DNA of 64,000 bases from Diplolepis rosae (Eukaryota; Arthropoda; Insecta; Hymenoptera; Diplolepididae): positions 326,762 through 390,761 of the forward strand of contig JAPYXD010000298.1 of the NCBI GenBank assembly GCA_030998225.1, given 5' to 3'. A model generated the notes under the pieces. The model was given only the letters and a program-made list of their open reading frames with translations. It made no database searches and was not told the origin of the DNA. The position numbers and the translations under genes are program-made. Below, one piece after another: positions 7,121-50,236 of the stretch; within the stretch, counting starts at the first letter, position 1, and every line of letters starts with the position of its first letter.

Positions 7121-7168
7121 TGAGACGTCTTAGACACATAAGAGAAAGATTTTTTTTAAAATAATTGT

Positions 7169-11810: not shown

Positions 11811-11843
11811 ACTAGTGATGATTATTAATTAATCATTACTAGT
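11811..11843 (-). other. Inverted repeat spanning the pol stop codon
   Basis: ACTAGTGATGATTA (11811-11824) faces TAATCATTACTAGT (11830-11843), 14-base arms with one mismatch, and the pol stop TAA (11831-11829) sits at the tip. All units keep it (27025-27057, 42242-42274, 57463-57495). It could be an RNA hairpin at pol termination or part of the nearby env acceptor region. Its role is unknown. Confidence 0.6.
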
Positions 11844-14800
11844 GTCTCTGCGATTTTGTATTTTCTTTGGTTTCACAGTGTGATTTATGTGTGAAATTCT
11901 GAGTCTGTTTGCATGAACAATTTTGTTACCTTGATTGTATTGAATTTTAATATTGTTTTTATTAATAATCTCCAAAATCTTGTGTGGTCCTGAATAGTGA
12001 TCACCAAATTTATTTGGCTTAGGGCCTTTTAAAAGAAAAACATAGTCTCCTATTCTAAAATTACGCGGATTTATCGTTCTGTCATAGTATTTTTTCGAAC
12101 GATTTTTGGATCCAACTAAATTTTCATAAACTAAAGTTCTTATTCCGTTTAGTCTAGTTACTAAGTCTATAATATATCCTTTATAAGAAGGCAGTAAATC
12201 TGTTTCCCTTAAGGGGTCACCTGAGGGTAATCTAGCCAGTTTTCCAAATACTGCTTCGTATGTCGTATGCTTAGTACTTTCCGATACACACGTGTTAAAA
12301 TTTAGAATCGCGATTTCCAACCATTCATCCCATTCTTGATCCGCATTAGTGTATTGCTTTAAAAATTCACCCAAAGCATGGTGTGACCTTTCCAATGAGC
12401 CATTAGACTGAGGATGAAAAGCAGTAGTTCTAATTTTTTTAATTTTAAATCTTTTTGAAATTCGTTGCATAAGTTTGCTTAGAAAATTTTGACCCTGATC
12501 GGTGATTACAATCCTAGGGGCTCCAAATAAACAAATAAATTTCTTAACAATAACATCAGCTATTGTAGTGGCAAGAGTATCTTTTAATGGGACTGCTAGA
12601 CAGAATTTAGACAGTTGATCCTGCATTGTGAGGATGTACTCGAATCCATTTTTAGTTTTGGGTAAGGGTCCTACCACATCTAGGGCTATTTTATCGAACA
12701 CTGTTCCTGGTGTATCTGTAATCACCATTGGCTGTTTTGTTTTTAATCGTACTAATTTTTTTAGTTGACAATTTAAACATTGCTGGATCCTTCGCTGAAT
12801 ATCTTCCTTCAGATTCTCCCAGTAGTAGTTTTGTTTTATTCTGTTGTAAGTTTTGGAGACTCCTCTATGACCTCCAATTGGTGAACAGTGCAATTCTTCA
12901 AATATTTCGTTTCGTTTATCCTGTGGAACAAATTTCAATGTTCCCTTACAAATAAGAATTTTAATATTTATATTCTTAAATACTGTTTTAAAAGCTAACA
13001 GCACTTCGGACCATGGTAAATTTTCTACATGTTCGCTTCGTGCTACACTTACTATCTTTACATTAAGTTTATCTATTAAATTTCTTAACTGCTTTAATAC
13101 TATATACAAGTTTTCTCTAATATTTGAAATAGATTCTTGTTTTTCGCCTCTTATGCAAAGAGCGAAATGGTTCGTTTTGCTCCCTTTCTTTGTGTGGGTA
13201 GCACTTATTTCCTTTAATGTTTGATTTGTTTCGATTTTGTTAAATTCAATTAAATTCTTTGCACCTTTATCGCAGGGATTTCCGGTACTTGTGACAAAGT
13301 ATATTAAATTGTCCTTTCGAAATTGTATCATTTCTTTAGTTTCAATAATTTGACATCTTAGGTTAGGGTCGAATTCCCTAGTTTCTTGGTTAGAATTTGA
13401 AGAATCGTAGCTTGATGTGCTACTGACTTTTGAATTTTCTTTTTGTTGAATGAGGACTTGTGCCTCGAAGTTTGATTCGGTCATTTTGACCGTGTCTTCA
13501 ATATCATCTTCTATTTTTGATGATACTGATTTTGAGGAAATTTTGTCCGGCGGTAACGCCGTTTTCGCCTTTGGGTTAGTTGAGTAACTTGACTCACTTT
13601 CCGCATAATTAGGGGTTGGTTTTCCTATTATTCTTTTTGACCTGCGTTTTTCATCAGTTGATACGTCGTTTGCTTCTTCCGTTTTCTTCTGGTTCCTTGT
13701 GATGATGTTGCACGATTGCGTTGGCACTTGCTCCGTAGGATTTCTTGAAAGTGCATCCGCGTTAAGGTTTAATTTACCAGGTTTATAAATGACTTCATAA
13801 TCGAATTCAGAGAGTTTAAAACGCCATTTTTGTACTCTAGTATTCAATTCTGCTGTTTTGAACCATACTAAAGGTTGATGATCCGTAATTATTTTAATTT
13901 TCTTTCCATAGATATACGAACGAAAGATTTTAACTGCGTGAATCATCGCCAGAGCTTCTTTTTCATAGACTTCATAAGAAAGCTCGGGACCACGTAAAAC
14001 TCTTGAGGTATATGCCATAGGGAGGTCTTTTCCTATTTCTCCCTGAGAAAGAATTCCACCAATAGCATATCCAGATGCGTCAGTTGTGATATTGAAAGGT
14101 TTTGCAAAATTAGGGTACTGCAAAATTGGAGGATTGCAAAGATGTTCTTTTAGCGTAGAAAAAGCTTGCTCCTCCTTTTCTGTCCATTTAAATGCGATAT
14201 CCTTTTGAAGTAACTTACTTAATGGTTTTGCAATTTGAGCAAAGTTCTTGATAAAACGGCGATAAAATCCAGCCAAGCCCAAAAATTGGCGTATATTTTT
14301 GACATTTTTAGGTTTTGGAAATTCTCTAACTGCTTCTAATTTTCTTGGATCTGGGCTAACTCCTTTTATATTTAACATGTGTCCTAGGTAACATACTTTA
14401 TCTCTTAAAAATTCGCATTTATCGGGATTTAGTTGAAGATTAGATTTCCGTAATCTATCCATAATTAATTTCATTTTTTCATCATGCTCTTCTAAAGAAT
14501 CGGCAAATACTACTATGTCATCGATGAATGTGAATAGAATTTTTCCTTGTAGATTTTTAAATGTTTCGTCAATAAATCTTTGAAAAGTTGGAGGGGCATT
14601 TTTTAATCCAAAAGTCATTCTTACATACTCATAATGACCATGGGGAGTGCTAAATGCTGTTTTATGTGCATCTCGTGGATCCATTAAAATTTGTTGGAAT
14701 CCTTTTGCTAAATCAAGGGTTGTGTAATATTTATGTCCTCCTACTTGGTCGATAATTTGTGTAATATCTGGTAAAGGGTATCCATCGCTGATGGTTTTGT

Positions 14801-16481
14801 CATTTAATTGGCGAAAATCTGAAACAAGTCGCCATTTTTGTTTTCCTGAAGAATCCATTTTTTTGGGTACAATCCATAGAGGTGAATTGTATGGTGAATT
14901 TGATGGTTTTATTATTCCAGAGTCTAACATTTCCTGAACTTGCCTTTCTACCTCTTCCTTTAGTGAAATTGGAAATTTATATTGTTTAACATTGATTGGA
15001 ATATCATCTATGGTTGGAATTCGGTGCATGACTGTACTTGCTGCTTCTAGTTTCTGTCCTTCTCTAAAAAACCGATCTTTGTTTGAAGTTACAAATTTAA
15101 TTATATAATTCCTTTCATTTTCATTTAAATCATTTAATCTCAACTTATTAATTAATAAATCCTCTTCTGAGACTGCAGTTTTGTTTCCTATAGAGAAGTT
15201 TCCATAAATTTCCTCTTCGGAGAAATTTCCTTGAAAAGTTTCATAAGTTTCATAAATTTCAAATTCGGAGTAAGAATCCAGGTTAAGTTCAGATGAAATT
15301 TCATGTAAAGTTTCCTGAAATTTATCTTTTGTGCACCATGTAAGTTGTTCATGTTCTGGATAGATGGGGCTATCCAGTTCTTCAGAGTCGTTTATAGGGG
15401 TTTCTTGTTCGTATTCTTGAAGTAAGGTTGAATGACTTGATGACGCAATTGCATCCAGGCTCCATGATGAATCTGTCCTTTTAATTTCTTCTGGTATGCT
15501 GGGAATACAGTTTTTATTTTCCTCTATAGCAAATTGTCGATTTTTATCCTGTAAAAATTCGTTTCCCAATGTAAATTCAGAGATTTTATCTTTCGTTTCT
15601 ATTGATTGGTTTTCGTCGTCAATTACTGCATTAGTTTCCGTTAGATATGTGGCACCTAAAATTCCTTCGCATGGAATATCGAAATCGTCAGATACTACAT
15701 GAAATGTGGATGTATACTCGTATGTATATCCGTATACTGCAAGTTTTATTGTTCCCATAGTGCGATTTAATTTATCACCTACCCCTTTAAGAAAAACAGT
15801 TTTAAAATTATCCATATCTATTTCACTAGGTAATAAATGATTCTTGATGATATTTGCTTCTGACCCTGTATCAATCATAAATTGTCCCAGACTATTTGAA
15901 GGAGGGTTGAATACTTTAATGAAAGGCAAGTTATTTTTCTTTAAATTATTGGTCCATCTTGTTATTCCACTTATTCTTGTTTCGGTTTGTAACTCATGAT
16001 TTTGTTGAAATTTAATGAATTTTTCTCCTACAATAAGATGATTCGTAAGGAAGTTGATTTTTGCTTTTGCATTAGTATAATATTCGGAACCTAGGATTCC
16101 GTCAAAAGGTATAAAAAATTCATCGGGTACTATGTGGAATTTTACTGTATGACCCATTAGTGTATGTTCTATTGTACCGATTGATGGGATTATAACAGAA
16201 TCTATTCCTTTGAGAAATACTGTTTCCTCGAGATTGACTATTTGAAGAGGGCTTTTTTTTTTGATTTTTAGAATATTTAACTCCGATCCAGTATCGAGCA
16301 TTAGCTTAATTGTGTCATTCATTACTGGATGTCTGAAAGATATAAATGGAATTTTCGTTGAATCTTCTTCTATATCGATGGTAATAATTCGCTTTGGAAT
16401 TGTTCTATTGATGTTCTTTGATTCGAGCGCTGTTGATTTTGGTTCTCCTTCTCGGTTGCACTCGGTCCCGGAAGGTTCCAT
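11829..16481 (-). CDS. pol: Pol polyprotein, unit 1, intact (PR-PR-RT-RH-IN)
   Basis: This 1550-aa frame lies in the -1 frame relative to gag and overlaps its end by 112 bases; it is expected to be made as Gag-Pol by frameshifting at 16484-16490, so the ATG at 16481 is probably not used as a start. Two retropepsin-like domains stand in tandem, DTGS at 63-66 with GILG at 128-131, and DTGS at 204-207 with GILG at 273-276. After an acidic linker comes reverse transcriptase (about 500-720) with D590 and FIDD 652-655, then RNase H with D801, E842 and D867. A Ser/Glu-rich linker of about 280 residues precedes integrase: zinc ligands H1198, H1205, C1235, C1238; catalytic D1268, D1328, E1364 (D-X35-E); and a GPY/F-like segment near 1493-1502. 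Order RT-RH-IN and motifs place it in Ty3/Gypsy. All catalytic residues are present. Confidence 0.95.
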   Translation of the reverse strand: MEPSGTECNREGEPKSTALESKNINRTIPKRIITIDIEEDSTKIPFISFRHPVMNDTIKLMLDTGSELNILKIKKKSPLQIVNLEETVFLKGIDSVIIPSIGTIEHTLMGHTVKFHIVPDEFFIPFDGILGSEYYTNAKAKINFLTNHLIVGEKFIKFQQNHELQTETRISGITRWTNNLKKNNLPFIKVFNPPSNSLGQFMIDTGSEANIIKNHLLPSEIDMDNFKTVFLKGVGDKLNRTMGTIKLAVYGYTYEYTSTFHVVSDDFDIPCEGILGATYLTETNAVIDDENQSIETKDKISEFTLGNEFLQDKNRQFAIEENKNCIPSIPEEIKRTDSSWSLDAIASSSHSTLLQEYEQETPINDSEELDSPIYPEHEQLTWCTKDKFQETLHEISSELNLDSYSEFEIYETYETFQGNFSEEEIYGNFSIGNKTAVSEEDLLINKLRLNDLNENERNYIIKFVTSNKDRFFREGQKLEAASTVMHRIPTIDDIPINVKQYKFPISLKEEVERQVQEMLDSGIIKPSNSPYNSPLWIVPKKMDSSGKQKWRLVSDFRQLNDKTISDGYPLPDITQIIDQVGGHKYYTTLDLAKGFQQILMDPRDAHKTAFSTPHGHYEYVRMTFGLKNAPPTFQRFIDETFKNLQGKILFTFIDDIVVFADSLEEHDEKMKLIMDRLRKSNLQLNPDKCEFLRDKVCYLGHMLNIKGVSPDPRKLEAVREFPKPKNVKNIRQFLGLAGFYRRFIKNFAQIAKPLSKLLQKDIAFKWTEKEEQAFSTLKEHLCNPPILQYPNFAKPFNITTDASGYAIGGILSQGEIGKDLPMAYTSRVLRGPELSYEVYEKEALAMIHAVKIFRSYIYGKKIKIITDHQPLVWFKTAELNTRVQKWRFKLSEFDYEVIYKPGKLNLNADALSRNPTEQVPTQSCNIITRNQKKTEEANDVSTDEKRRSKRIIGKPTPNYAESESSYSTNPKAKTALPPDKISSKSVSSKIEDDIEDTVKMTESNFEAQVLIQQKENSKVSSTSSYDSSNSNQETREFDPNLRCQIIETKEMIQFRKDNLIYFVTSTGNPCDKGAKNLIEFNKIETNQTLKEISATHTKKGSKTNHFALCIRGEKQESISNIRENLYIVLKQLRNLIDKLNVKIVSVARSEHVENLPWSEVLLAFKTVFKNINIKILICKGTLKFVPQDKRNEIFEELHCSPIGGHRGVSKTYNRIKQNYYWENLKEDIQRRIQQCLNCQLKKLVRLKTKQPMVITDTPGTVFDKIALDVVGPLPKTKNGFEYILTMQDQLSKFCLAVPLKDTLATTIADVIVKKFICLFGAPRIVITDQGQNFLSKLMQRISKRFKIKKIRTTAFHPQSNGSLERSHHALGEFLKQYTNADQEWDEWLEIAILNFNTCVSESTKHTTYEAVFGKLARLPSGDPLRETDLLPSYKGYIIDLVTRLNGIRTLVYENLVGSKNRSKKYYDRTINPRNFRIGDYVFLLKGPKPNKFGDHYSGPHKILEIINKNNIKIQYNQGNKIVHANRLRISHINHTVKPKKIQNRRDTSND

Positions 16482-18034
16482 CCGTTTCCCGTCCGTCTTT
16501 CTTCATTATATTTTCTTTTATAGCATTCCTCTATCGTATGCCCTGGTGTTTTGCAATATTTGCATTCCTTTTGAGTGGACGCCATTCTACATTTCGCTGC
16601 TTCATGTCCATATCGATTGCAGATTTGGCATGTTAAAACCTTATTTATTTCGGTTGGTAAAGGTCTTATTGGTTTGTTTAATGAAAAGCATTTGTCTGCA
16701 CTGTGTCCTTGTTTATTACACAGTTGACATGTTATCCTAGTTGATAGTTTATTTAGGAAACAATCTTTAGCAGTGTGTCCCTGTTTTTTACATATTTGGC
16801 ATTCCTGGTTGCCAAAACATTGGGTAGCCGTGTGCCCTTGCTTATTGCATAGTTGGCACTTAATTTGATTAAGTGGTTCATATTTTAAATTTTTCTGAGC
16901 CTTAAAACATTTTTCTAAATTATGCCCATTTATTTTACAGTTGGTACACCAGAGTCTATTTCTGCATTGCTCTGCTTCGTGTCCTTCTCGATTACAAATT
17001 CGACATGGGAACATACGTCGAGTTCTTAAATGATTGTCTTCATTTCGGTTATTTACTGTTGTCCGTCTAAGATTTTTTTGAGCTTCTAATTTTCGCTCGA
17101 TGGTGATCGCATTTTTTATTAAGTTGTTGACATCTTCCACTTCCTCGTTTCCCAATCGTTGCTCCAGTTCGAATTTAAGTCCCCTTTTAAAAGAATCAAC
17201 CAATGTGTTTTCGATTTGCGCGCGGAAATTTGGGTCGATAAAACCTTGATTTTCTAAACTCCTAACCTCCAAAATCCTAGTTCCAATATCCCTGATTCTG
17301 TTAGCATAACTAATTACGTTTTCGTGATCTCTTTGAAATTCCTGTCCTAGCTCTCCTAGTAATTGAGGAATAGTCCTAGCTGGAGTATATATATTTTTAA
17401 GGAAAGTTTTAAGCTCGTCGATGTTTAAAAATACTTGACCAGAAATAGCTTGACGGGCTTCACCTGTTATTTTGCTCCTGATTAATTTTACTAAGTTAAT
17501 TTCTGATTCGGGTTCTATCATGCACTTAGCTTCATTACAACCTTCTATAAATTGTGCTAAAAGAATATTTCTACCATTAAATTCGGGTACTACCATTAGT
17601 GCGTCCCGTAAAGTAACAACCTGGATTGTAACCGGTTGCTGGTTAGCATTTACATTCTTATTAGGTTGCTCAGAAGAACTCGGTCTCCCGTAACCTGATT
17701 TTTCTGGCATACTCATTTTGATTTTAATATTGGGGTTTTTCTCTAAAGAATAGTTTAAATAAGATTCGCTTAGATCTACTAGTGTTTTAGTACTATTGTT
17801 TGATAGTACTGAAGTATCAAAAGGGTTTTCAAAAGAATAGTTTTCCTGAATTGATTCGCTAGTATCATTCAGGGGTTCTGTATCCTTACTTGAGGATGTT
17901 GAAAGATTTAAAGAATATTCCTCTTCACCACGTGGTAGCTCTTTTCTTGGAGCAAAAGGATTAAATTCATCAACTTCTTTTTGAAGGTCTGAATCTTTCG
18001 ATGCCTGTGTTCGGGTGATTCTTTTGTCCGACAT
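16370..18034 (-). CDS. gag: Gag polyprotein, unit 1, intact, seven zinc knuckles
   Basis: The 554-aa frame starts at a true ATG at 18034. Residues 1-120 are acidic and Ser-rich, 120-330 form a capsid-like helical region, and 344-504 hold seven CX2CX4HX4C knuckles (344-357, 363-376, 393-406, 412-425, 436-449, 469-482, 491-504). These bind nucleic acid in Gag proteins, where one or two are usual. The protein ends in a Gln/Asn/Ser-rich tail of 50 residues which overlaps pol in the -1 frame. Gag forms the particle and packages the genomic RNA. The knuckle repeats differ from one another, so they are an old expansion and not a recent slippage. Unit 2 differs by one residue (Asn to Lys in an NRIRDIG segment); unit 3 is identical as far as I compared. 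Confidence 0.95.
   Translation of the reverse strand: MSDKRITRTQASKDSDLQKEVDEFNPFAPRKELPRGEEEYSLNLSTSSSKDTEPLNDTSESIQENYSFENPFDTSVLSNNSTKTLVDLSESYLNYSLEKNPNIKIKMSMPEKSGYGRPSSSEQPNKNVNANQQPVTIQVVTLRDALMVVPEFNGRNILLAQFIEGCNEAKCMIEPESEINLVKLIRSKITGEARQAISGQVFLNIDELKTFLKNIYTPARTIPQLLGELGQEFQRDHENVISYANRIRDIGTRILEVRSLENQGFIDPNFRAQIENTLVDSFKRGLKFELEQRLGNEEVEDVNNLIKNAITIERKLEAQKNLRRTTVNNRNEDNHLRTRRMFPCRICNREGHEAEQCRNRLWCTNCKINGHNLEKCFKAQKNLKYEPLNQIKCQLCNKQGHTATQCFGNQECQICKKQGHTAKDCFLNKLSTRITCQLCNKQGHSADKCFSLNKPIRPLPTEINKVLTCQICNRYGHEAAKCRMASTQKECKYCKTPGHTIEECYKRKYNEERRTGNGWNLPGPSATEKENQNQQRSNQRTSIEQFQSELLPSI
16447..16490 (-). promoter_or_regulatory. Programmed -1 frameshift signal between gag and pol
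   Basis: On the minus strand GGGAAAC (16490-16484) is a canonical X XXY YYZ slippery heptamer and is read in the gag frame as G GGA AAC. After an 8-base spacer a stem begins, CCTTCCGG (16475-16468) with CCGAGAAGG (16455-16447), eight pairs with one bulged A. Sequence, frame and spacing all fit retroviral -1 frameshifting. The signal is identical in units 2 (31661-31704) and 3 (46880-46923) and also present in unit 4 (62111-62154). Confidence 0.85.
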
Positions 18035-18059: not shown

Positions 18060-19320
18060 AATTTACATTTGAATTCTCGTGATCTTTTTGAAACGTTTGA
18101 AATTTAGGATTTTTAGAATCCTATTAAAAATTTGAAAATTTAGAAAAATTTATATTTGGACTCTTGTGTTCCATAGAAAATTTGTTTTAAAATTAGGATT
18201 CTTATGATCCCTTTGAAAATTTTGAAAATTAGGATTCTTATAATCCTATTAAAAATTTGGAAATTGAGACAAATTTAACATTTGGATTCTTGTGATCCAA
18301 TAAAATTTTGTTTTAAAATTAGGATTCTTTTTAATCCCTTTAAAAGTTCATAGATTTCGGATTTTTATAATCCTATTGAAAATTTTAAAATATTGAAAAT
18401 GTAGAATTTTGGATTCTTGTGATCCAATAAAATTTTGTTTTAAAATTAGGATTCTTTTGATCCCTTTGAAAATTTAGAAATTTAGGATTTTTGTAATCCT
18501 ATTTAGAATTTAGAAATATAAAATAATTTTGAATTTGGATTCTTTTGATCCATAGTAATTTTGTTTTATAATCAGGATTCTTTTGATCCCTTTGAAAATT
18601 TAGAAATTTAGGATTTTTGTAATCCTATTTAGAATTTAGAAATATAAAATAATTTTGAATTTGGATTCTTTTGATCCATTTTAATTTTGTTTTATAATCA
18701 GGATTCTTTTGATCCCTTTGAAAATTTATAAATTTAGGATTTTTGTAATCCTATTTAGAATTTTGAAATATAAAATAATTTTGAATTTGGATTCTTTTGA
18801 TCCATTTTAAGTTTTGAATAAAATTAGGATTCTTGTGATCCTTTTTGAAGATTTTTTAAAATTTTAGGATTTTTGGAATCCTATTAAAAATTTGAAATAT
18901 TAAGAATTTTAGAAATGTGGATTCTTGTGATTCATAGAAATTTTGTTTATAATCAGGATTCTTGTGATCCCTTTAAGAATTTTTAGATTTAGGATTTTTA
19001 TAATCCTATTGAAAATTTGGAAACAGAAAATTTAAAATTTGGATACTTTTAATCCATAGAGATTTGTTTAAACTTAGGATTCTTTTGATCCTTTTAAAAG
19101 TTTAGAAATTTAGGATTTTTATAATCCTATTAAAAATTTGAAAATTTATAAGAAAAATCGAAAATTGGATACTTTTGCTCCATAGAATTTTGTTTTTTTT
19201 TTTAAATTAGGATGCTTGCGAACTTTTTTTTAATAATTTGAAAATTTAGGATTTTTATAATCCTATTGAGGTTTGAAATTTAAGAATTTTGAAATTTGGA
19301 TTCTTCATATCTATATAATA
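18060..19320 (-). repeat. Leader array: ten 126-bp repeats made of small hairpins
   Basis: The word AGGATTTTTATAATCCT or a close variant recurs at 18116, 18231, 18358, 18484, 18610, 18736, 18865, 18991, 19112 and 19247, mostly 126 bases apart. Each is a perfect 6-bp inverted repeat (AGGATT/AATCCT). Between them each unit also has one or two GGATTCTTTTGATCC-type words (GGAT/ATCC). The flanks of these words vary while the paired ends are kept, and several changes are compensated or confined to loops. The array lies in the gag leader just upstream of the gag ATG and is transcribed, so a string of 20-30 RNA hairpins or multiple protein-binding sites is likely. No coding frame is supported. Confidence 0.85.
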
Positions 19321-19442: not shown

Positions 19443-19796
19443 TTACAGGCTAAACTTTTTAGGTATTTTATATTTCATATTATTCTTTTGGAAACATTCA
19501 AAGCAACTCTCCCTAACACCATGAACCAAGCAGTTGTCGCAGAAACTGCCTCTAAATAATTTTATTTTTTCCTCTAATGTGAGGTCCTTTTTGAATGTTT
19601 GCGCACATTCATACTTTTCCTGAGGGGGTGGTGGTGGTGGTGGGTCCGATTTAGGTTCGTAGGCCGGTAGAGGTGGGTTTCCTTCAAGAGCCTTCTTAGC
19701 TGCTAATTTAGCTAATTTTACCCGTTTTCGCTGACGTTGAGCCTTGGTTGGCTTATTCCGCCGATGGGTTAAATAACCGTGATTTTCTCCGTTCAC
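19443..19796 (-). CDS. Small basic Cys4 accessory protein frame, unit 1 (no AUG)
   Basis: A 118-codon frame (117 aa) is open between the leader repeat array and the coiled-coil frame. It begins at GTG (19796) and has no ATG before residue 107. Residues 12-35 are rich in Arg and Lys (an RRNK and an RQRKRVK segment), like a nuclear or RNA-binding arginine-rich motif; 53-59 are seven prolines; and C86, C89, C98 and C101 form CX2CX8CX2C, fit to bind zinc. A 3' splice site (long pyrimidine tract ending ATTGTAG at 19798-19795) overlaps the GTG, so it is probably a second exon. Its mixed composition stands out in a very AT-rich leader. The layout recalls Tat/Rev-like regulators of complex retroviruses, but this is analogy, not homology. 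Confidence 0.55.
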   Translation of the reverse strand: MNGENHGYLTHRRNKPTKAQRQRKRVKLAKLAAKKALEGNPPLPAYEPKSDPPPPPPPQEKYECAQTFKKDLTLEEKIKLFRGSFCDNCLVHGVRESCFECFQKNNMKYKIPKKFSL

Positions 19797-19870
19797 TACA
19801 ATAGATAAGATTTGTGTTTCAAAAATAAGGTAAGGGTATATTAAAAAAGAAAGAGAGAAGAGAAAAAAAA
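19795..19870 (-). promoter_or_regulatory. Splice acceptor before the Cys4 frame
   Basis: Read on the minus strand, a tract of T9 then CTCTTCTCTCTTTC and T6 is followed about 45 bases later by CTATTGTAG, which ends inside the first GTG codon of the Cys4 frame. It is the longest pyrimidine tract in the leader. T-run lengths vary by one between units, while the AG is constant. Confidence 0.45.
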
Positions 19871-19872
19871 AT

Positions 19873-20176
19873 TTAAAGGTTCAATCTTTCAAAGACCTTG
19901 AAAAGATTACTTTGGGTCTCCAAAATGTTTTTAAGTTCATCATCAATTTCAATGTTTTTATTCAATAAAGTTTCATTTACTTTTTTCAAATCTTGATTAT
20001 CTTTTTCTAAATTTTTGATTACATTTTCTAGACCGGTTATTTTATCACATAAATAAGCGACAGTTGTCCACCGATCTTCGTCCAAATCTTCTAGATCATT
20101 GATTTTTTTTAGCTACTCTTTTCAAATTTTCGAAAATAATAACTTCAGATGTTGAGAATTCTTGGTCGTTTAACAT
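19873..20176 (-). CDS. Small coiled-coil accessory frame with A8 slip site, unit 1
   Basis: An ATG at 20176 opens 26 codons that end at TGA (20098-20096). Overlapping in the +1 frame is a longer frame, open from within the A-run and covering 19873-20085 at least (70 codons from a TTG), which has no ATG at its head. The switch point is a run of eight A (20110-20103) kept at exactly eight in units 1-3. The long part is Glu/Lys/Asn-rich with heptad-spaced Leu, Ile and Val over about 50 residues, a clear coiled coil. A +1 frameshift or transcript slippage on A8 would link the ATG to the coiled coil. An ancestral 1-base indel is the alternative, but it would have to predate all copies. Function unknown. 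Confidence 0.5.
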
Positions 20177-20216: not shown

Positions 20217-22296
20217 TTGTTAAAATTATAACATTTTGTTAAATTCGTTTCGATCGAAAAAAAAATTTTATTTTGAAAATTTATTAGTTCTCAGCATATA
20301 AAAATTTTGAACATTTTGAGAAAAGTTGGAAAATTCTGTCTAAATAACAAATGAAAACTTTGAAATTTTTAATAATTTGAAATGTTTTATAAAGTTGATA
20401 AAAATTATAAAAATATTGAAAATCATAAAATCTGAAAAATTCGTGAAATTAAAAAAAAAAATTGGGTTTAATTTATAAAATTCCTAAAATGACCTAAAGA
20501 AATTTTTAAAGAAAATTGCTAGAAGCTGGTTTTGCTCTAGCAATTTTTTTCTAGAATTTTAATTTGAGATTACTTTTTCTAAAAGTTAGTCTAATTGACT
20601 CATGTCAGTTGGAAAAATAGCTACCTTTTTCATTGCTAAAAAAAATTTTGGAGAATTTATAAAATTTGAACTATTTTGAATTTATGAAATTGGGTTTGAT
20701 AAAAAAAAAAATTTTTAAGTTAGTAAAATTTGTTAAATTTAAAAAAAAAATAGTAGTTTTTATAAAAGTCATTTTTTTTCAAATCTTTTCTGCTGACCAT
20801 GTCGATAACTAGCAGAGTGCATCACTCACAGAGTTCTCAAATTCTCGAAAATTTAAGTTGGTGGAATATAACCGAGAATATTACACAATTTAAAGAATAT
20901 AAGAGAATATAAAGAAAATTTGGAGAATTTATGTTTTTAAATATCAATTCATGTTTATTTATCGATTTTGAAGATATGTTTGTTATTAAATAAGAAGCAT
21001 TTGATTGTGTACATGTTTGAAATGAAAAAGAACCTTGAAATTGTTTTACTCTCAAGATATTAAAATTTTTCACCGCTGAAATTTTAAGTTATGTTCGCTT
21101 TGAATTTGATACTAAAGATATTGAATTAACATTATCTTCATAATTATAAAAATTTCAATGAATTATATTAATTTTTTCAGTATATTAGACGTCTTATTTG
21201 CATGAAATTCTTTAAATAATTTTTATTAGAACAAAAATAGAACATTATTATATTGTCATGCCAGAAAACCGGTCTCTGAAGAAAAAGTTCTTTTATGATT
21301 TTGAGACATGAAATGATATCATTGGTCGTTCCATATGGAATAGGAAAAATTATTTCTTATGGAAAAATTTTAAAAGTCACGAAAAATAATACTTTTAACA
21401 TTATTTGTTGTAATAAAATCTTTCCTTACTAAACTTTTTTATCAAATTTTTCAAAATAATTGAATTTACATAATTCATGGCCTATTTTACCAAGGAAAAT
21501 ATTCTCTATAACCCTACTGTTTCCCAGTTTGAAAATAAGTGAAAAATCTTCAAATATAGCTATTTTGAAAAAAAAATTCTTTTCTAAAAATTACTTCAAC
21601 GCTTATCATATACCATCAGAATATCAGAGAAATATTGAACTATAATTTTATACGCAGTAAATAATTGATTCCGATTGTTTAAAACATAACAAAAAAATCA
21701 AAATGAGAAAATTTTCATAAATTCTAAGAGAATTTATCTGTCGGTTATGTTCTCGGTAATATTCTCATTCTCGTTACCGTTCTCAATGTAATATAACCAA
21801 CTCAGAATTCTAATCACTCACTATGATAACCGAACTCTACCTTATCGACGATCTCTTCTTCTCACAAAAAAAATCTTTTAAATAGTAAAATCTTCGTAAA
21901 ATTTTGTTTAATTCGTAAAACCTAATTTAATTTAGAGAATTTTTGTAAAGTTTGAAAATTTTGTACAATAATATTTATAAAATTTAGTTTTGATTCAGAA
22001 AATTTTGGAAAGTATTAGTTGGGTAAAATTTTGAAAAATTATTGAAATTTCGTTTAATTTATTAAAAATCCGTAAAAGTCGTAAAAATTTTTAAAGTGTG
22101 TAAAACATTTGAAGATTTAGTTTAAAATTTTCCCCCAGAATACGTTTTCTTGAAAAATTTTATATATAATGGTAAAGGACTCAGAATAATCACACAAAAA
22201 TACACAGAAAATAATCATAAATAAGATAGAAGAAAGTAGAAAGAAAGTGAGGAAAATTGCACAAAATTTGGCAGAGAATAATTATCTTGAACAGAA
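20217..22296 (-). other. 5' leader between PBS and accessory frames, unit 1
   Basis: This 2.1-kb AT-rich stretch has no supported gene. It holds a perfect 12-bp stem AAAATTGCTAGA/TCTAGCAATTTT with a 12-base loop (20512-20523 with 20536-20547) and the insertion-like segment 20830-21812. The position between the primer-binding site and gag is where packaging and dimerisation signals usually lie. The rest is A/T homopolymer-rich, and runs differ by 1-2 bases between units. Confidence 0.6.
20830..21812. mobile_element. Possible inverted-terminus insertion inside the leader, unit 1
   Basis: The segment is flanked by the direct repeat ATCACTCAC (20821-20829 and 21813-21821). Its ends are imperfect inverted repeats: AGTTGGTGGAATATAACC and GAGAATATTAC near the left match, in reverse complement, segments around AATATAACCAACT and GTAATATTCTC near the right. 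GTCGATAA/TTATCGAC outside the 9-base repeat is also inverted, so the true border may be wider. A 9-base target duplication would fit a Mutator-like derivative. It has no transposase; the small frames inside (20837-21073 and 21460-21645) look incidental. It is in units 1-3 at the same place, so it was present before amplification. Confidence 0.45.
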
Positions 22297-22314
22297 ATCC
22301 CTCCGGGGCCTCCA
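22297..22314 (-). other. Primer-binding site of unit 1 (tRNA-Thr-like)
   Basis: TGGAGGCCCCGGAGGGAT on the minus strand would pair with a tRNA 3' end reading ...CGGGGCCU-CCA. A U discriminator base and a GGGGCC acceptor strand are typical of eukaryotic tRNA-Thr. It lies 17 bases inside the 5' LTR edge, a longer gap than usual. It is the only GC-rich patch in this part of the leader. The second unit has one change (37515-37532); unit 3 has the same sequence as unit 1 (52736-52753). Confidence 0.75.
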
Positions 22315-22325
22315 AAAATTAAAAA

Positions 22326-22355
22326 CTCTTATGTGACGTCTTAGACACATAAGAG
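22326..22355 (-). other. Inverted repeat across the LTR/leader junction
   Basis: CTCTTATGTG (22326-22335) pairs perfectly with CACATAAGAG (22346-22355) around a 10-base loop. The left arm is half spacer and half LTR end, so it exists only where a 5' LTR meets the leader; the outer left end at 7121 lacks it. It recurs at 37544-37573 and 52765-52794, close to the primer-binding site. Confidence 0.6.
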
Positions 22356-24864
22356 AAAGATTTTTTTTTATAATTGTATTATTATATTCTTGAAGAGAAT
22401 ATAATAATTTTATGTAATTTCGGGTCTGGAAAATTAATTCCAATAACCCGGGACTACTGTTCGTTAAATGAACTATTCTCGACCAAAATAAAGAAATAGA
22501 AATATCACGTGAAATATAAAATGGGAAAAAACATGTCGAATGTAGGACAAAGTCGTACTATTCCCATAAAAGGGAGCACGCCACTTTGTCCTTGATTCTA
22601 AGGATTTGGAATTGAAGGAAACAAATATGTACAAATGTTAGTACTGGAGTATTACCAGCACCCAAACATTTGTAGAAAAAAAAATATATAAAATAATATA
22701 AAAGAGATAAGTTAGAAAGAAGTAGGGAGACACAGCGATTTTATGATTTACTTACTTTTATTTATGATGGTGATTTTTATTAATCCTCAGTAGACGGCTG
22801 ATCCTGGATAAAACTTGGTTAATTTTGTTGAGAAATAATAGACTACAACCGACGAGGGAGTTTTACTTAAGGATTCGTTTTATTTTATGTTTTAATTTTC
22901 CGGATTGTATAACTTCGAAAGAATTTCGTTTTTTTTTTTTTTAGAAAGATTTGAATGCAGGGACAAGAACTGATGAAAATTTTGTCTGCAGTTAGTTTTA
23001 TGTGCAGCACCCCGCTTCCCTCACCATATTTCAAATTTAGGAAAAGTCTGGGGGTAGCTGTCCTGGCTTTCTATTGGCCTAGTTAGGCAAGCCTAGTTAC
23101 GCCCAGACTTCCCTTAGTGTGAAAATCTAGGGGCGTTGCAAGTTTTCCAGGCCCTGTGGGCCGTACCAAGTTTTCTCCAAGTTCAGTCACCTTCCAAAAG
23201 ATGGCGACATTTGTATATTCTTAAATAAAATGTGTTACAAATTAATTATTTAAATAATTATGTGTAAAGATTTCGTTAAATTTAAATAATTGAAAGGTTA
23301 AATTACAATATAATTCATTTATATCCAAATTTAGCTTACAAACTAGTTAATTTACATTGAACTAAATATTCTTCTTTTCAAGATTCAAAAGAATCATTAA
23401 TACATACGATTAATGTTTATCCTGTAATTATTTTTATGAATAAACATAAACATCATAAAATCAAAACAAAACATCGAATATGTTGTTTAAATATACAAAA
23501 TTAGTCATTTAAAAGGGTAAATTTAATATAAGTTTTCTTTTGTGAATTTATTTGATAAAATATAAAAAGTAATTCTGAAAGTTTGTGATTTTTCATTTTT
23601 ATATAAACTTCTTATTTATAAAAATAAATGTAAAGATTTACACATTCGAAGTTGAGTTTATTTGATTTGAAAACATACGCAAAGTTATTTATAAGATACA
23701 TATTCGAATATGAAATATTGTCGGTAAAACAGAACGTTTCATTATTTCAATTCTTTAATAACAATATTTCAATTAACTTAAATTGTTAATTTTTCTAGTG
23801 TTTAGCTTATGCTCATATGTATTCTGACGTTATTTGAAAATTGAATTAAATCTTTTGCAAAATAAGTTTAGTTTTTAGAATTTATGAACTTAAAAATATG
23901 TTTATAAAGGTTGGAAATATATATTTTTGTGAAGGTAAAATAGTAATGTTTAAAAATTTACTGTTGAAATATGTTGTGTATAAATTCAAATACATATCAT
24001 GTAAACTAATACTTTAACTTTTCTAGAATTGAATAAAAGAGTGTAAGAAAGTAAATTTTAATTAGTATTTTAACTTCAGAATTGAATTTTCATAAATTTA
24101 TTCGTTGATAAGGTAGATTCCTAATTATTAAAATCTTCGATGAATTGTTATTGGTTTTTAGTTACAATCAAATGAGTTTGAACTATTGTTTCGAATAAAA
24201 ATTAGATTAGAATTACTGTTCCTATTATTAAATAATATAATAGTTTATTTTTTATTCATAATATACTGAAATAATATAAAAATAAATAATATTAATTTAA
24301 AACTAAATTCTTAATATTTTAACATTCTTATTAATTGAGAATTTTTATTATCTATTATATATATGGCCCATTCTATTTTCTAAGCGCAGTAAATACAATG
24401 TGCTTTGTTTGTATTTACTTGGGCGTGGTACAAGCGCGGGCCCTTTTGACCATTAGCCTAAGCTATTTACGATATTTCCGGAAATGGCTAATCGCTAAGC
24501 TATATACTGTTATGGCTCTATGCAGTTCTATGCATTTATTTACTAGAGGATTGCAAACAGAAATATCTGAAAGGAATACGATTGTGGGCTGTATCTTTTG
24601 GTCGAAGTTTCAAAGTGCAAGTTTTATTACTTTTACCGATTGCTAAGAAAATTTAAATCTTTATATTTACGCAGCTGCATATTTTCTAAAAAGGCTTTTG
24701 AATTTATACAATCTTTAGAGAAGAGATTGCGTTTAAAATATTTACATTTTTATGAGTAAAACTTTGGAGAAAAATATGAAATGGAATATTATAAATTTAC
24801 TTATTACAGGTTAATAAAAATTAGTAATAATAATAAAAGTAAAAGACGGACGCAGGACGTTACA
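22332..24864 (-). repeat. LTR 2, shared by units 1 and 2, 2533 bp
   Basis: It serves as 5' LTR of unit 1 and 3' LTR of unit 2. Termini on the minus strand are TGTAACGTC and GACGTCACA. It differs from LTR 1 at only a few scattered positions and homopolymers, for example a CCAGGCCC instead of CTGGGCCT in the GC-rich block near 23147. Predicted TATA box is at 24356-24364 and initiator at 24333-24338. Confidence 0.93.
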
Positions 24865-25034: not shown

Positions 25035-26963
25035 TTAGAAATATGGACGACTCTTTGAGGTCTTTTCTTCTTTTTCCCGCTGAGTTGATTTTTCTTGATT
25101 AGAGTTGTCCTGTTCAGTTGTCTGTATTTCTCCCAATTCTATGTCGTTTGAAGCTGTTGGTCTTTTAGCAATCTGTATGAGTAGGTAAGTAACTGAACTC
25201 CACAGAGCTCCTAAAAGGTGTATGGACCAACCATAGACGGCATGCAGTGTATAACCTTGAATTATGATGTCTATTATAGCTTTAATCAAGTGAATGATCA
25301 TAAATATAGCTATTATTCCGGCACTTGCAGTCCCGAAAGTGATGAAATGTGTCCAGAGTTTGTTCCATGTGTTGCTGGCTATTGTAGTAATCACTTCTTC
25401 ATTAAGTAACTTTAAAAGACTTCCTTCATTGTCGCCCAAGGGATGTCCTCGCATTTCTCTAGCTAAATCATTGAGAACTGCTGGTCGTTCTACTGGAAAC
25501 ATAATTCTTCCCCTAATTTGGTCCAATTCTTGTTCTGTGTATATTCCGTTGGTCGCCAGTTCTGATGGATTGACGTATTCCCACGTAGGTGCTGTCATCG
25601 GCTTAATAATTGTAGGTTTCTCTGCTGTGGTAGGTAGTGGTAGTATTTTGTACCATTTGTTACCAACATAGTATTGGGAAGGTAACATTCTGTTGCAAGG
25701 TATCTGTGTTCCTTGAGTCTTGAGGATGTGAGTTCTAGGTGTAAGGAAGTACGTTTTGTTGTTTCGAGTTACTTGAAGTTCTCCATAACAGGATTCCCCA
25801 TGCTCCATTTTTATTTCCACTGGTACACATTTGATTATGTGTACTACTTCACCTGCAACAACTGCCATGTATCCTGGTCCCTTCATCAAGTCGTAGGCGA
25901 ACTCGTCCGGCGATTGTGTTGCTATTGAAAGTGAGTTTTTCAAAGTTTGCTTCTCTAATTTACATTTTTGGGTGAGCACGTCTTTATACAGTTGTTTCAT
26001 TTGAGAGCGTAAATGTTTTTCGACGTATACAAATTTGGAGTTAACATATGCAAAAATATCTAAATTCGTTACAGAGATTTTTTTATAATTTGCGAAGCTT
26101 TCACCTTTAGTTGTTTCAAATATTAACAATTTAGGATGTTCTGTTCTAATAACTACATAACCGCAAACGGTTTCTTTGCTTTTTGCTGTCAGGGCGAACG
26201 TTATATCTTGGGTGGAAAGAGAGTACATAATTTGCTTGTTATCAAAATCGTGATCTATTACTTTATTTGCTAATCCTTCATAAAGGATGCTATATTGCTG
26301 AAATTTACAATTATCAACCGGTACTGTATTCCAAAAGGTATAACCTCCCTCCTGACCAATGCAATGACCATCAGAAAGTGAACAAATAGTTCCTGAACGC
26401 AAATGAATAGAATTTGAATTTAACTTTATTTCTGCAGTTTGTTCACTTAGAGATATTTTTATTATACCTTGCACAACTACATTTTCCCATGTGCCAAACG
26501 GATCTGAGTAACCTACTCCATTACATTTCCCTTCAGAATTAATATATCCCGCAAACATTAAACTGTGGGTTATAGTTTGATTAATTTTGATATCGCGTAC
26601 AATATGTGATTCAGTAACCTTTAATATTCCTGTTTTGTGTACATCTTCGCATGCACTTCTACTAACGTCGTTTATATATTCATTTTCTCCGTTTAGAACA
26701 ATAGAAATATGTGAGTGCATCCCACAATAGTACACTGTTCTATGTGTTTCGAACTTACATTGGATTATCTTCGTTTCACTATATTCGTTGATTTGCAGGA
26801 GCTGTACATATTTCTCAGATACATCGACATTTGTTTCTGGTAGCTCACATTCTCCTACTTCTAATAGTGAAAGTGTTGTAACGTTTAAGTTTCGGGACCC
26901 ACAATCGTATCCAATAAAAGCATTTGAATTACTTATTATTACACATAGTAATAACCAAAACAT
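25035..26963 (-). CDS. env: Env, unit 2, intact chuvirus-like membrane glycoprotein
   Basis: 642 aa from a true ATG at 26963 that touches a splice acceptor. Residues 1-15 are a hydrophobic signal peptide ending near Ser-Asn-Ala. The ectodomain is Cys-rich, begins with a GYDCGS segment and several N-X-S/T sites, and carries a conserved-looking IMFPVERPAVLN segment at 487-498. A hydrophobic segment at about 541-569 and a second at 578-600 are membrane segments, and 601-642 is a charged tail. The N-terminal Tyr-Asp-Cys, the MFP..RPAVLN block and the Gly-Trp-Ser-containing juxtamembrane helix recall glycoproteins of chuviruses (Jingchuvirales), which have been found captured in arthropod retroelements. 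No furin-type site was seen, unlike baculovirus-F-type errantiviral env. Its role would be receptor binding and membrane fusion. The assignment is by recalled family features, not by alignment. Confidence 0.85.
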   Translation of the reverse strand: MFWLLLCVIISNSNAFIGYDCGSRNLNVTTLSLLEVGECELPETNVDVSEKYVQLLQINEYSETKIIQCKFETHRTVYYCGMHSHISIVLNGENEYINDVSRSACEDVHKTGILKVTESHIVRDIKINQTITHSLMFAGYINSEGKCNGVGYSDPFGTWENVVVQGIIKISLSEQTAEIKLNSNSIHLRSGTICSLSDGHCIGQEGGYTFWNTVPVDNCKFQQYSILYEGLANKVIDHDFDNKQIMYSLSTQDITFALTAKSKETVCGYVVIRTEHPKLLIFETTKGESFANYKKISVTNLDIFAYVNSKFVYVEKHLRSQMKQLYKDVLTQKCKLEKQTLKNSLSIATQSPDEFAYDLMKGPGYMAVVAGEVVHIIKCVPVEIKMEHGESCYGELQVTRNNKTYFLTPRTHILKTQGTQIPCNRMLPSQYYVGNKWYKILPLPTTAEKPTIIKPMTAPTWEYVNPSELATNGIYTEQELDQIRGRIMFPVERPAVLNDLAREMRGHPLGDNEGSLLKLLNEEVITTIASNTWNKLWTHFITFGTASAGIIAIFMIIHLIKAIIDIIIQGYTLHAVYGWSIHLLGALWSSVTYLLIQIAKRPTASNDIELGEIQTTEQDNSNQEKSTQREKEEKTSKSRPYF

Positions 26964-27042
26964 CTGAAAATAAAAGAATTATTAGTATTAAATTTCAGGG
27001 TTTACATCTTCCCATCTTTGCATTACTAGTGATGATTATTAA

Positions 27043-34658: not shown

Positions 34659-35012
34659 TTACAGGCTAAACTTTTTAGGTATTTTATATTTCATATTATT
34701 CTTTTGGAAACATTCAAAGCAACTCTCCCTAACACCATGAACCAAGCAGTTGTCGCAGAAACTGCCTCTAAATAATTTTATTTTTTCCTCTAATGTGAGG
34801 TCCTTTTTGAATGTTTGCGCACATTCATACTTTTCCTGAGGGGGTGGTGGTGGTGGTGGGTCCGATTTAGGTTCGTAGGCCGGTAGAGGTGGGTTTCCTT
34901 CGAGAGCCTTCTTAGCTGCTAATTTAGCTAATTTTACCCGTTTTCGCTGACGTTGAGCCTTGGTTGGCTTATTCCGCCGATGGGTTAAATAACCGTGATT
35001 TTCTCCGTTCAC
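34659..35012 (-). CDS. Small basic Cys4 accessory frame, unit 2
   Basis: Same 117-residue product as unit 1, again without an ATG and again overlapped at its start by the ATTGTAG acceptor. One silent change was seen (GAG for AAG-side strand at 34901, no residue change). The acidic, proline and Cys4 segments are unchanged. Confidence 0.55.
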   Translation of the reverse strand: MNGENHGYLTHRRNKPTKAQRQRKRVKLAKLAAKKALEGNPPLPAYEPKSDPPPPPPPQEKYECAQTFKKDLTLEEKIKLFRGSFCDNCLVHGVRESCFECFQKNNMKYKIPKKFSL

Positions 35013-49882: not shown

Positions 49883-50236
49883 TTACAGGCTAAACTTTTT
49901 AGTTATTTTATATTTCATATTATTCTTTTGGAAACATTCAAAGCAACTCTCCCTAACACCATGAACCAAGCAGTTGTCGCAGAAACTGCCTCTAAATAAT
50001 TTTATTTTTTCCTCTAATGTGAGGTCCTTTTTGAATGTTTGCGCACATTCATACTTTTCCTGAGGGGGTGGTGGTGGTGGTGGGTCCGATTTAGGTTCGT
50101 AGGCCGGTAGAGGTGGGTTTCCTTCAAGAGCCTTCTTAGCTGCTAATTTAGCTAATTTTACCCGTTTTCGCTGACGTTGAGCCTTGGTTGGCTTATTCCG
50201 CCGATGGGTTAAATAACCGTGATTTTCTCCGTTCAC
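49883..50236 (-). CDS. Small basic Cys4 accessory frame, unit 3
   Basis: 117 residues, one change from units 1 and 2 (Pro to Thr at about residue 112, in the basic tail). C86, C89, C98, C101 and the Arg/Lys block are kept. GTG at its head, no ATG. Confidence 0.55.
   Translation of the reverse strand: MNGENHGYLTHRRNKPTKAQRQRKRVKLAKLAAKKALEGNPPLPAYEPKSDPPPPPPPQEKYECAQTFKKDLTLEEKIKLFRGSFCDNCLVHGVRESCFECFQKNNMKYKITKKFSL

Follow-up and report, generated by a model that had tools for sequence, protein, structure and literature searches.

The window (the whole 64,000-nt stretch of Diplolepis rosae DNA analysed here) contains a head-to-tail, minus-strand array of proviral units of about 15.2 kb, in which neighbouring units have LTRs in common. 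The units (nt 7121–64000) are about 99% identical and each carries gag, pol (PR-RT-RNaseH-INT) and env, with the frames broken in some units. The LTR of unit 1 (TGTAACGTC...GACGTCACA) is found at nt 22332–24864 (minus strand, as are all the features below); its 3' end was placed from the repeat boundary 7121/22332 and its terminal inverted repeats were judged by eye. LTR ends in other lineages are similar to those of the window. The primer-binding site TGGAGGCCCCGGAGGGATT (nt 22296–22314) is conserved: 10 further copies outside the window match it with 0–2 mismatches, where up to four were allowed.

The gag gene (nt 16370–18034; PF00098) specifies seven CCHC knuckles (CX2CX4HX4C), as read from the translation, which is well above the one or two usual for retroviruses. 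Pfam domains and a comparison of the protease domains show that pol (nt 11829–16502) is arranged PR-PR-RT-RNaseH-INT. Its two tandem retropepsin-like domains (nt 15573–16355) share 40% identity over 106 positions, both with DTGSE, and possibly form a single-chain dimeric protease. The families PF00077, PF00078, PF17917, PF17921 and PF00665 follow each other in this order along pol and, judged by its gag, pol domain order, LTRs and tRNA primer site, the carrier is a Ty3/Gypsy-type LTR retroelement. The env gene (nt 25035–26963), preceded by an acceptor, AG|ATG, at nt 26964, encodes a fusion glycoprotein of the Monjiviricetes/chuvirus type (E 2.9e-245 to PF24664, the sole Pfam family returned at E <= 1). 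An errantivirus or other insect endogenous retrovirus with a baculovirus F-type env was considered and rejected on the basis of this PF24664 assignment. The genome holds at least 133 matches to the chuvirus-type env.

As gag starts at nt 18034, the leader is about 4.3 kb long. It is AT-rich, as an earlier note made from the letters alone had remarked, and carries two genes and a repeat array. The first gene (nt 19873–20176) starts at an ATG of its own and encodes about 100 residues with a predicted coiled coil; it is frameshifted in unit 1, and intact copies occur elsewhere. It lies upstream of the second gene, Cys4, in lineages A, C and D. Among copies with intact frames, omega was 0.257 (15 sequences) and 0.201 (seven sequences), with 2dlnL of 101 and 109, values which indicate that the coiled-coil gene is conserved under selection. 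Lineage B has a weakly similar frame downstream of Cys4 (27.9–28.8% identity, E 1e-6 to 3.5e-6 in L031, L032 and L039), the homology of which is uncertain because coiled coils resemble one another, and lineage E (L050) gave no match.

The Cys4 gene and its family

The coding exon of the Cys4 accessory gene runs from a TG dinucleotide to the stop codon (nt 19443–19795) and predicts a protein of 117 aa. The reading frame (minus 19796–19443) has 117 codons and a stop, within a stop-to-stop frame of 145 codons, and specifies a basic N-terminus, a PPPPPPP run and a CX2CX8CX2C motif. Three copies occur in the window (nt 19446–19796, 34662–35012 and 49886–50236). The earlier note had described just such a frame, with these three protein features, in units 1–3, and its proposed search for homologues proved productive: the protein returned 127 matches at E <= 0.001 in the same genome (757.7 Mb), ranging from 100% down to 34% identity and including cases of one copy split in two pieces. 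Loci L001–L055 represent 55 of the matched places, whole or in part.

An alignment of 25 open-frame copies has nine invariant positions, among them three of the four cysteines. The C-terminal module, CX2C/CXH...CX2C, closes with YKIPKK or a near variant. In lineage E (L050, L051), the most distant in this genome, histidine takes the place of the second cysteine, in CXH spacing; CXH...CXXC is also seen in P0017 and P0019–P0021, which are distant relatives. Such a swap fits metal binding, and from its sequence the protein is probably zinc-binding. The module is CX2CX8CX2C or CXHX6CX2C and not the CX2CX4HX4C of the retroviral nucleocapsid knuckle. Fusion of Cys4 to gag or env was excluded, since in most aligned members a stop follows 0 to about 11 residues from the IPK stretch. 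In L019 a truncated Cys4 continues in frame into a different reading frame; P0010, which would seem to be this same fusion, bears DDE transposase Pfam domains. The family has no significant match in Pfam (window protein and 15 members), PDB profiles (best E values 1.5 and 0.051, both unconvincing) or the viral contigs of IMG/VR (two scans).

Maximum-likelihood codon models gave omega values of 0.170 for seven clade A sequences, 0.114 for eight lineage representatives and 0.159 for 23 sequences, and omega = 1 was rejected in each case (2dlnL 161, 304 and 426, respectively, at matched kappa). By the NG86 method, dN and dS were 0.124 and 1.457 for the window against L017, and 0.166 and 2.992 for L025 against L046, while saturation left 21 of 28 pairs with no dS. 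The dN/dS comparison, which the earlier note had suggested making against related elements, thus reveals strong purifying selection (omega 0.11–0.17) across the Cys4 copies of this one genome, and the frame is preserved at about 40% identity, that is, in diverged family members, where the earlier note would have taken its loss as refutation. Long frames can arise from a less AT-rich patch within AT-rich DNA, but a neutral relic or antisense artefact left open by chance is next to inconceivable given the codon models and the retention of the frame at such divergence. On this evidence Cys4 is almost certainly a coding gene.

The predicted acceptor, LTR donor and start codon

No in-frame ATG precedes Cys4 in the window or in 53 of 54 rows of the start-context comparison (53 distinct copies, WIN1 being L003); the exception is the fused frame of L019, and L052 and L055 were left unplaced, their starts being too broken. 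The frame opens instead at a predicted 3' splice site (TATTGTAG|TG; nt 19796–19797) that is kept by copies from every lineage. As the acceptor AG is nt 19797–19796, the exon holds just the TG of the first GTG. TG stands immediately past the acceptor position in 42 of the 53 distinct copies, one of which (L045) reads AC in place of AG. Three further copies keep the AG and continue with TA, TC or TT (L024, L038, L054), and the remaining eight are rearranged or out of register, although L021 among them still reads TAG|TG. The residues after TG differ between lineages (NGEN, DGIN, ESGA, HGEA, DPGT, ENNG), so that the constraint is apparently on the TG itself. An in-frame upstream extension was rejected, as six lineage B copies (L031, L037, L039, L041, L044, L045) have a stop 3–4 codons upstream. 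Both the missing ATG and the acceptor overlapping the first codon had been pointed out in the earlier note; the former extends to the family and the latter, as TAG|TG, to every lineage.

A matching donor is predicted within the LTR, AAA|GTAAGT (nt 22750–22758), from which exon 1 would end at nt 22756. The 700 nt before the primer-binding site and the leader were scanned in 10 copies with a weight matrix biased towards G as the last exon base. AAA|GTAAGT was returned in nine, the site being at a larger distance in the tenth, L040, and it is present in each of the 10 copies for which a primer-binding site was located upstream of the gene: 278–441 nt before that site in nine and 1442 nt before it in L040. 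Other donors exceeded the cut in four of the 10; in L032 and L034, an AAG|GTAAGC located 522 nt after the start of the primer site outscores AAA|GTAAGT and would yield GUG. AAA|GTAAGT is also present in L033 and L037, where a primer-binding site was not detected. Counted over the long loci, AAAGTAAGT is seen upstream of Cys4 in 11 of 20, plus the window, and was not seen within about 4.5 kb upstream in the other nine (L036, L038, L041, L043, L044, L045, L047, L048, L049), so that the donor is represented in lineages A, B, C, D2 and E and unseen in D1. In the window, AAAGTAAGT occurs four times, always on the coding strand and at the equivalent place in the LTR, against 1.48 expected; six of 100 shuffles reach four. 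As the string is not rare, the case for the donor rests on its conservation. Its core is identical at 9/9 positions between five lineages, while the flanks (30 bases each side) agree at 4–15 of 30, near background. The last exon base is A in 12 of 12 copies, an uncommon exon end among donors. L035 does not count independently, as its lineage C-like LTR stands ahead of a lineage B gene, perhaps through recombination or nesting.

Joining the donor (...AAA) to the acceptor (TG) would create an AUG in AAA-AUG context. Exon 1 would comprise the 5' end of the transcript within the LTR, up to AAA|GTAAGT; the stretch ahead of the donor is AUG-free over 190–378 nt in 11 of 12 copies and over 58 nt in L046. 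Splicing would take out an intron of 1.5–3.7 kb together with the primer-binding site and the 7–51 upstream AUGs that it contains. Exon 2 would open with TG, and the one RNA junction that the model predicts, 22756|19795, would form the start codon. The same exon 1 could also serve env, given the AG|ATG acceptor at nt 26964. The alternative is that Cys4 is made from unspliced RNA, by initiation at GUG or through an internal entry site. Of 53 distinct copies, 41 do begin with GTG (L045 has CTG), but there is no conserved purine at -3 upstream, 4–48 ATGs lie between the primer-binding site and the gene (10 copies), and what is conserved is a pyrimidine-rich stretch with TAG, matching an LTR donor that has A as its last exon base. 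Unspliced expression is therefore quite improbable, and the Cys4 start codon is very probably created by splicing, with translation from the spliced mRNA only. Within 40 nt ahead of the donor (nt 22756–22795), an AATAAA is found in 9 of 12 copies, and polyadenylation within the 5' LTR might be inhibited by U1 bound to this donor.

The hairpin array and the presence of Cys4 among copies

Between Cys4 and gag lies an array of short inverted repeats, GGAT-N7-ATCC, with a period of about 126 nt (nt 18073–19305; 24 hairpins against 0.4 expected). Counts of GGAT-N3-9-ATCC around the gene were high in lineage B (L032, 20; L031, 14) and lineage D1 (L036, 14; L025, 12; L027, 11), and 0–2 in lineages C, D2 and E (L042, L033, L028, L046, L047, L050); some lineage A copies are also low (L024, one; L016, three). 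The array is downstream of Cys4 in lineage A and upstream in B and D1. A 311-nt piece of it is no more stable than its shuffles (z -0.85). Both fetched copies without Cys4 retain the array (L056, 30 hairpins; L057, 24), a pattern that a cis target supplied in trans would produce, as would any other cis function. The suggestion of the earlier note that the protein acts on the adjacent array fares unevenly. Retention of the array in L056 and L057 agrees with it, but as a general mechanism it is weakened, since representatives of C, D2 and E keep the protein with 0–2 hairpins and the array of B and D1 is upstream. On present sequences the array is a recurrent feature; its status as an obligatory partner of Cys4 is not supported.

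The frequency of Cys4 was assessed next to 82 gag N-termini (query start 1–4) among the listed matches, the best 127 of 3548 candidates; lineage E, the gag N-terminus of which did not match, falls outside this sample. A Cys4 match was found within 4 kb upstream in 44 of the 82 and none in 38, and thus the gene is not needed in cis for amplification. L056 is a lineage A copy without Cys4. In L057, a lineage B leader with 92.8% identity to L032 jumps to gag, so that both leader genes are missing, while the gag and env frames are open. Copies of this kind, lacking Cys4 but with open gag and env, would fit a product that is trans-acting or dispensable. One contig (G000:C31, nt 1980605–1998820) carries three gag copies at 8.64-kb spacing that are 99–100% identical to those of the window, and no Cys4 match was found on that contig.

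The predicted protein and its possible role

Two AlphaFold models of the Cys4 protein (pLDDT 69.9 and 71.0; pTM 0.30 each) consist of a basic helix and a short helical cysteine module, with a low-confidence proline-rich linker between them. The helix (18–39), which falls in a basic region conserved across the alignment, is predicted confidently, the pLDDT of the block reaching 94–95. Foldseek returned no useful match for the first model in the PDB, nor was one obtained for the second against one PDB chain and BFVD, and known RNA regulators gave no significant match in the Pfam, PDB sequence, Foldseek and BFVD comparisons. Inspection by eye revealed no canonical CRM1 export signal; a conserved LxLxxxIxLF-like stretch is present in the alignment, the spacing of which departs from that of standard leucine-rich CRM1 export signals.

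Its predicted spliced origin, its basic and cysteine-rich composition and its absence from certain copies in which gag and env are open make it most likely that the product acts in trans on the RNA of the element. We regard as evenly poised the proposal that a complex endogenous retrovirus of the Ty3/Gypsy type has in Cys4 an accessory gene, spliced and trans-acting on the element's RNA. The narrower proposal, that its product is a trans-acting RNA regulator made from a spliced mRNA, Rev/Tat-like in role and not homologous, falls slightly short of that. Such a protein would contact RNA via the basic helix and would favour unspliced genomic/gag RNA over splicing. HIV-1 Tat and Rev and HTLV Rex are small basic regulators made from the spliced mRNAs of complex retroviruses, and the Cys4 protein, small and Cys-rich with a basic helix and a predicted spliced leader mRNA, resembles them in architecture only. 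The reading of the earlier note, a possible Tat/Rev-like regulator, is partly supported: a selected protein behind a conserved 3' splice site agrees with it, and for the activity itself the resemblance is one of architecture. The window protein and 15 family members gave no Pfam match to lentiviral Tat, nor to Rev or Rex. The order basic-then-Cys (Cys-then-basic in Tat), the position of the gene ahead of gag and the lack by eye of a canonical export signal set Cys4 apart.

Two other products of the same spliced gene were weighed, and we consider each of them unlikely. One is a suppressor of siRNA/piRNA silencing, with small or double-stranded RNA as its ligand. Small RNA-binding suppressors are common among insect viruses, and a small basic protein from a predicted spliced mRNA, lost in many copies, is compatible with this role, but neither a dsRNA-binding domain nor a match to a known suppressor was found, and we know of no silencing suppressors that feature CX2C/CXH-CX2C and PPLP. 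The other is a protein of the virion or its assembly, similar to a nucleoprotein or matrix protein, that serves an infectious enveloped phase. A basic protein with a Cys module resembles nucleocapsids, and env (from the best 131 of 1702 candidates) lies 4–12 kb downstream in 30 of the 44 gag copies with Cys4 compared with 19 of the 38 without; this association is, however, not significant (30/14/19/19, Fisher p 0.12), and gag already supplies seven CCHC knuckles.

For the RNA regulator, a possible partner is suggested by the linker, in which the window protein has PPLP and, a few residues on, PPPPPPP. PPLP is found in 17 of the 25 aligned members and absent from eight, and it recurs in four of seven distant relatives (P0015, P0020, P0021 and P0022; not P0016, P0017 or P0019). 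In PRPF40A, PPLP is the ligand of the first WW domain and polyproline that of the second (PMC11079029). Through PPLP, the Cys4 protein could possibly engage a PRPF40-type splicing factor at its WW domains, but the motif sits in an already proline-rich linker, and the connection is taken as a lead only; actual contact with such a factor would appear doubtful, more so than either of the two alternative products above. The same grade of doubt attaches to the complete scheme, that of a complex Metaviridae provirus with two leader genes, the Cys4 regulator of which binds both the element's RNA and, via PPLP, a PRPF40-type WW factor and so restrains its own splice. If it were true, regulator output would report use of the LTR donor, so that the change from spliced to genomic RNA would time itself, and copies without Cys4 would be parasites served in trans.

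Additional frames outside gag-pol-env near the 5' end are familiar from WDSV orfC, plant Ogre ORF1 and Retrosat2 ORF0, all located 5' of gag, to which Cys4 is likened by description alone; none of them, to our knowledge, has a basic helix with a Cys4 module or a splice-made AUG. A literature search, in which subscription journals were thinly covered and which is weak evidence, found no description of an insect Gypsy element with such a leader gene. The presence of conserved regulatory genes is commonly seen as a hallmark of complex vertebrate retroviruses; two leader genes under selection in a Gypsy-type element, with splicing apparently supplying the start of one, would mean an independent origin of such regulation. 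Splice-made start codons have a precedent among the springer-subclade endogenous retroviruses of Drosophila, which are also Ty3/Gypsy and in which env is reported to be spliced and the upstream exon supplies an AU dinucleotide (EMBO J 2025, PMC12992720), where A alone is predicted for Cys4. Those viruses have a baculovirus F-type Env, whereas here a basic Cys protein is encoded in the leader, the predicted donor is in the LTR and env is of the chuvirus type. In its captured chuvirus-type glycoprotein, the element resembles Anakin, described in PMC10084718 as a mosquito BEL/Pao element with a chuvirus glycoprotein, but it differs in being Gypsy-type and in having two leader genes. That study reportedly sought capture of chuvirus glycoproteins by Gypsy elements and obtained no clear evidence of it; the chuvirus-type env in the present Gypsy-type element would be a case of this kind.
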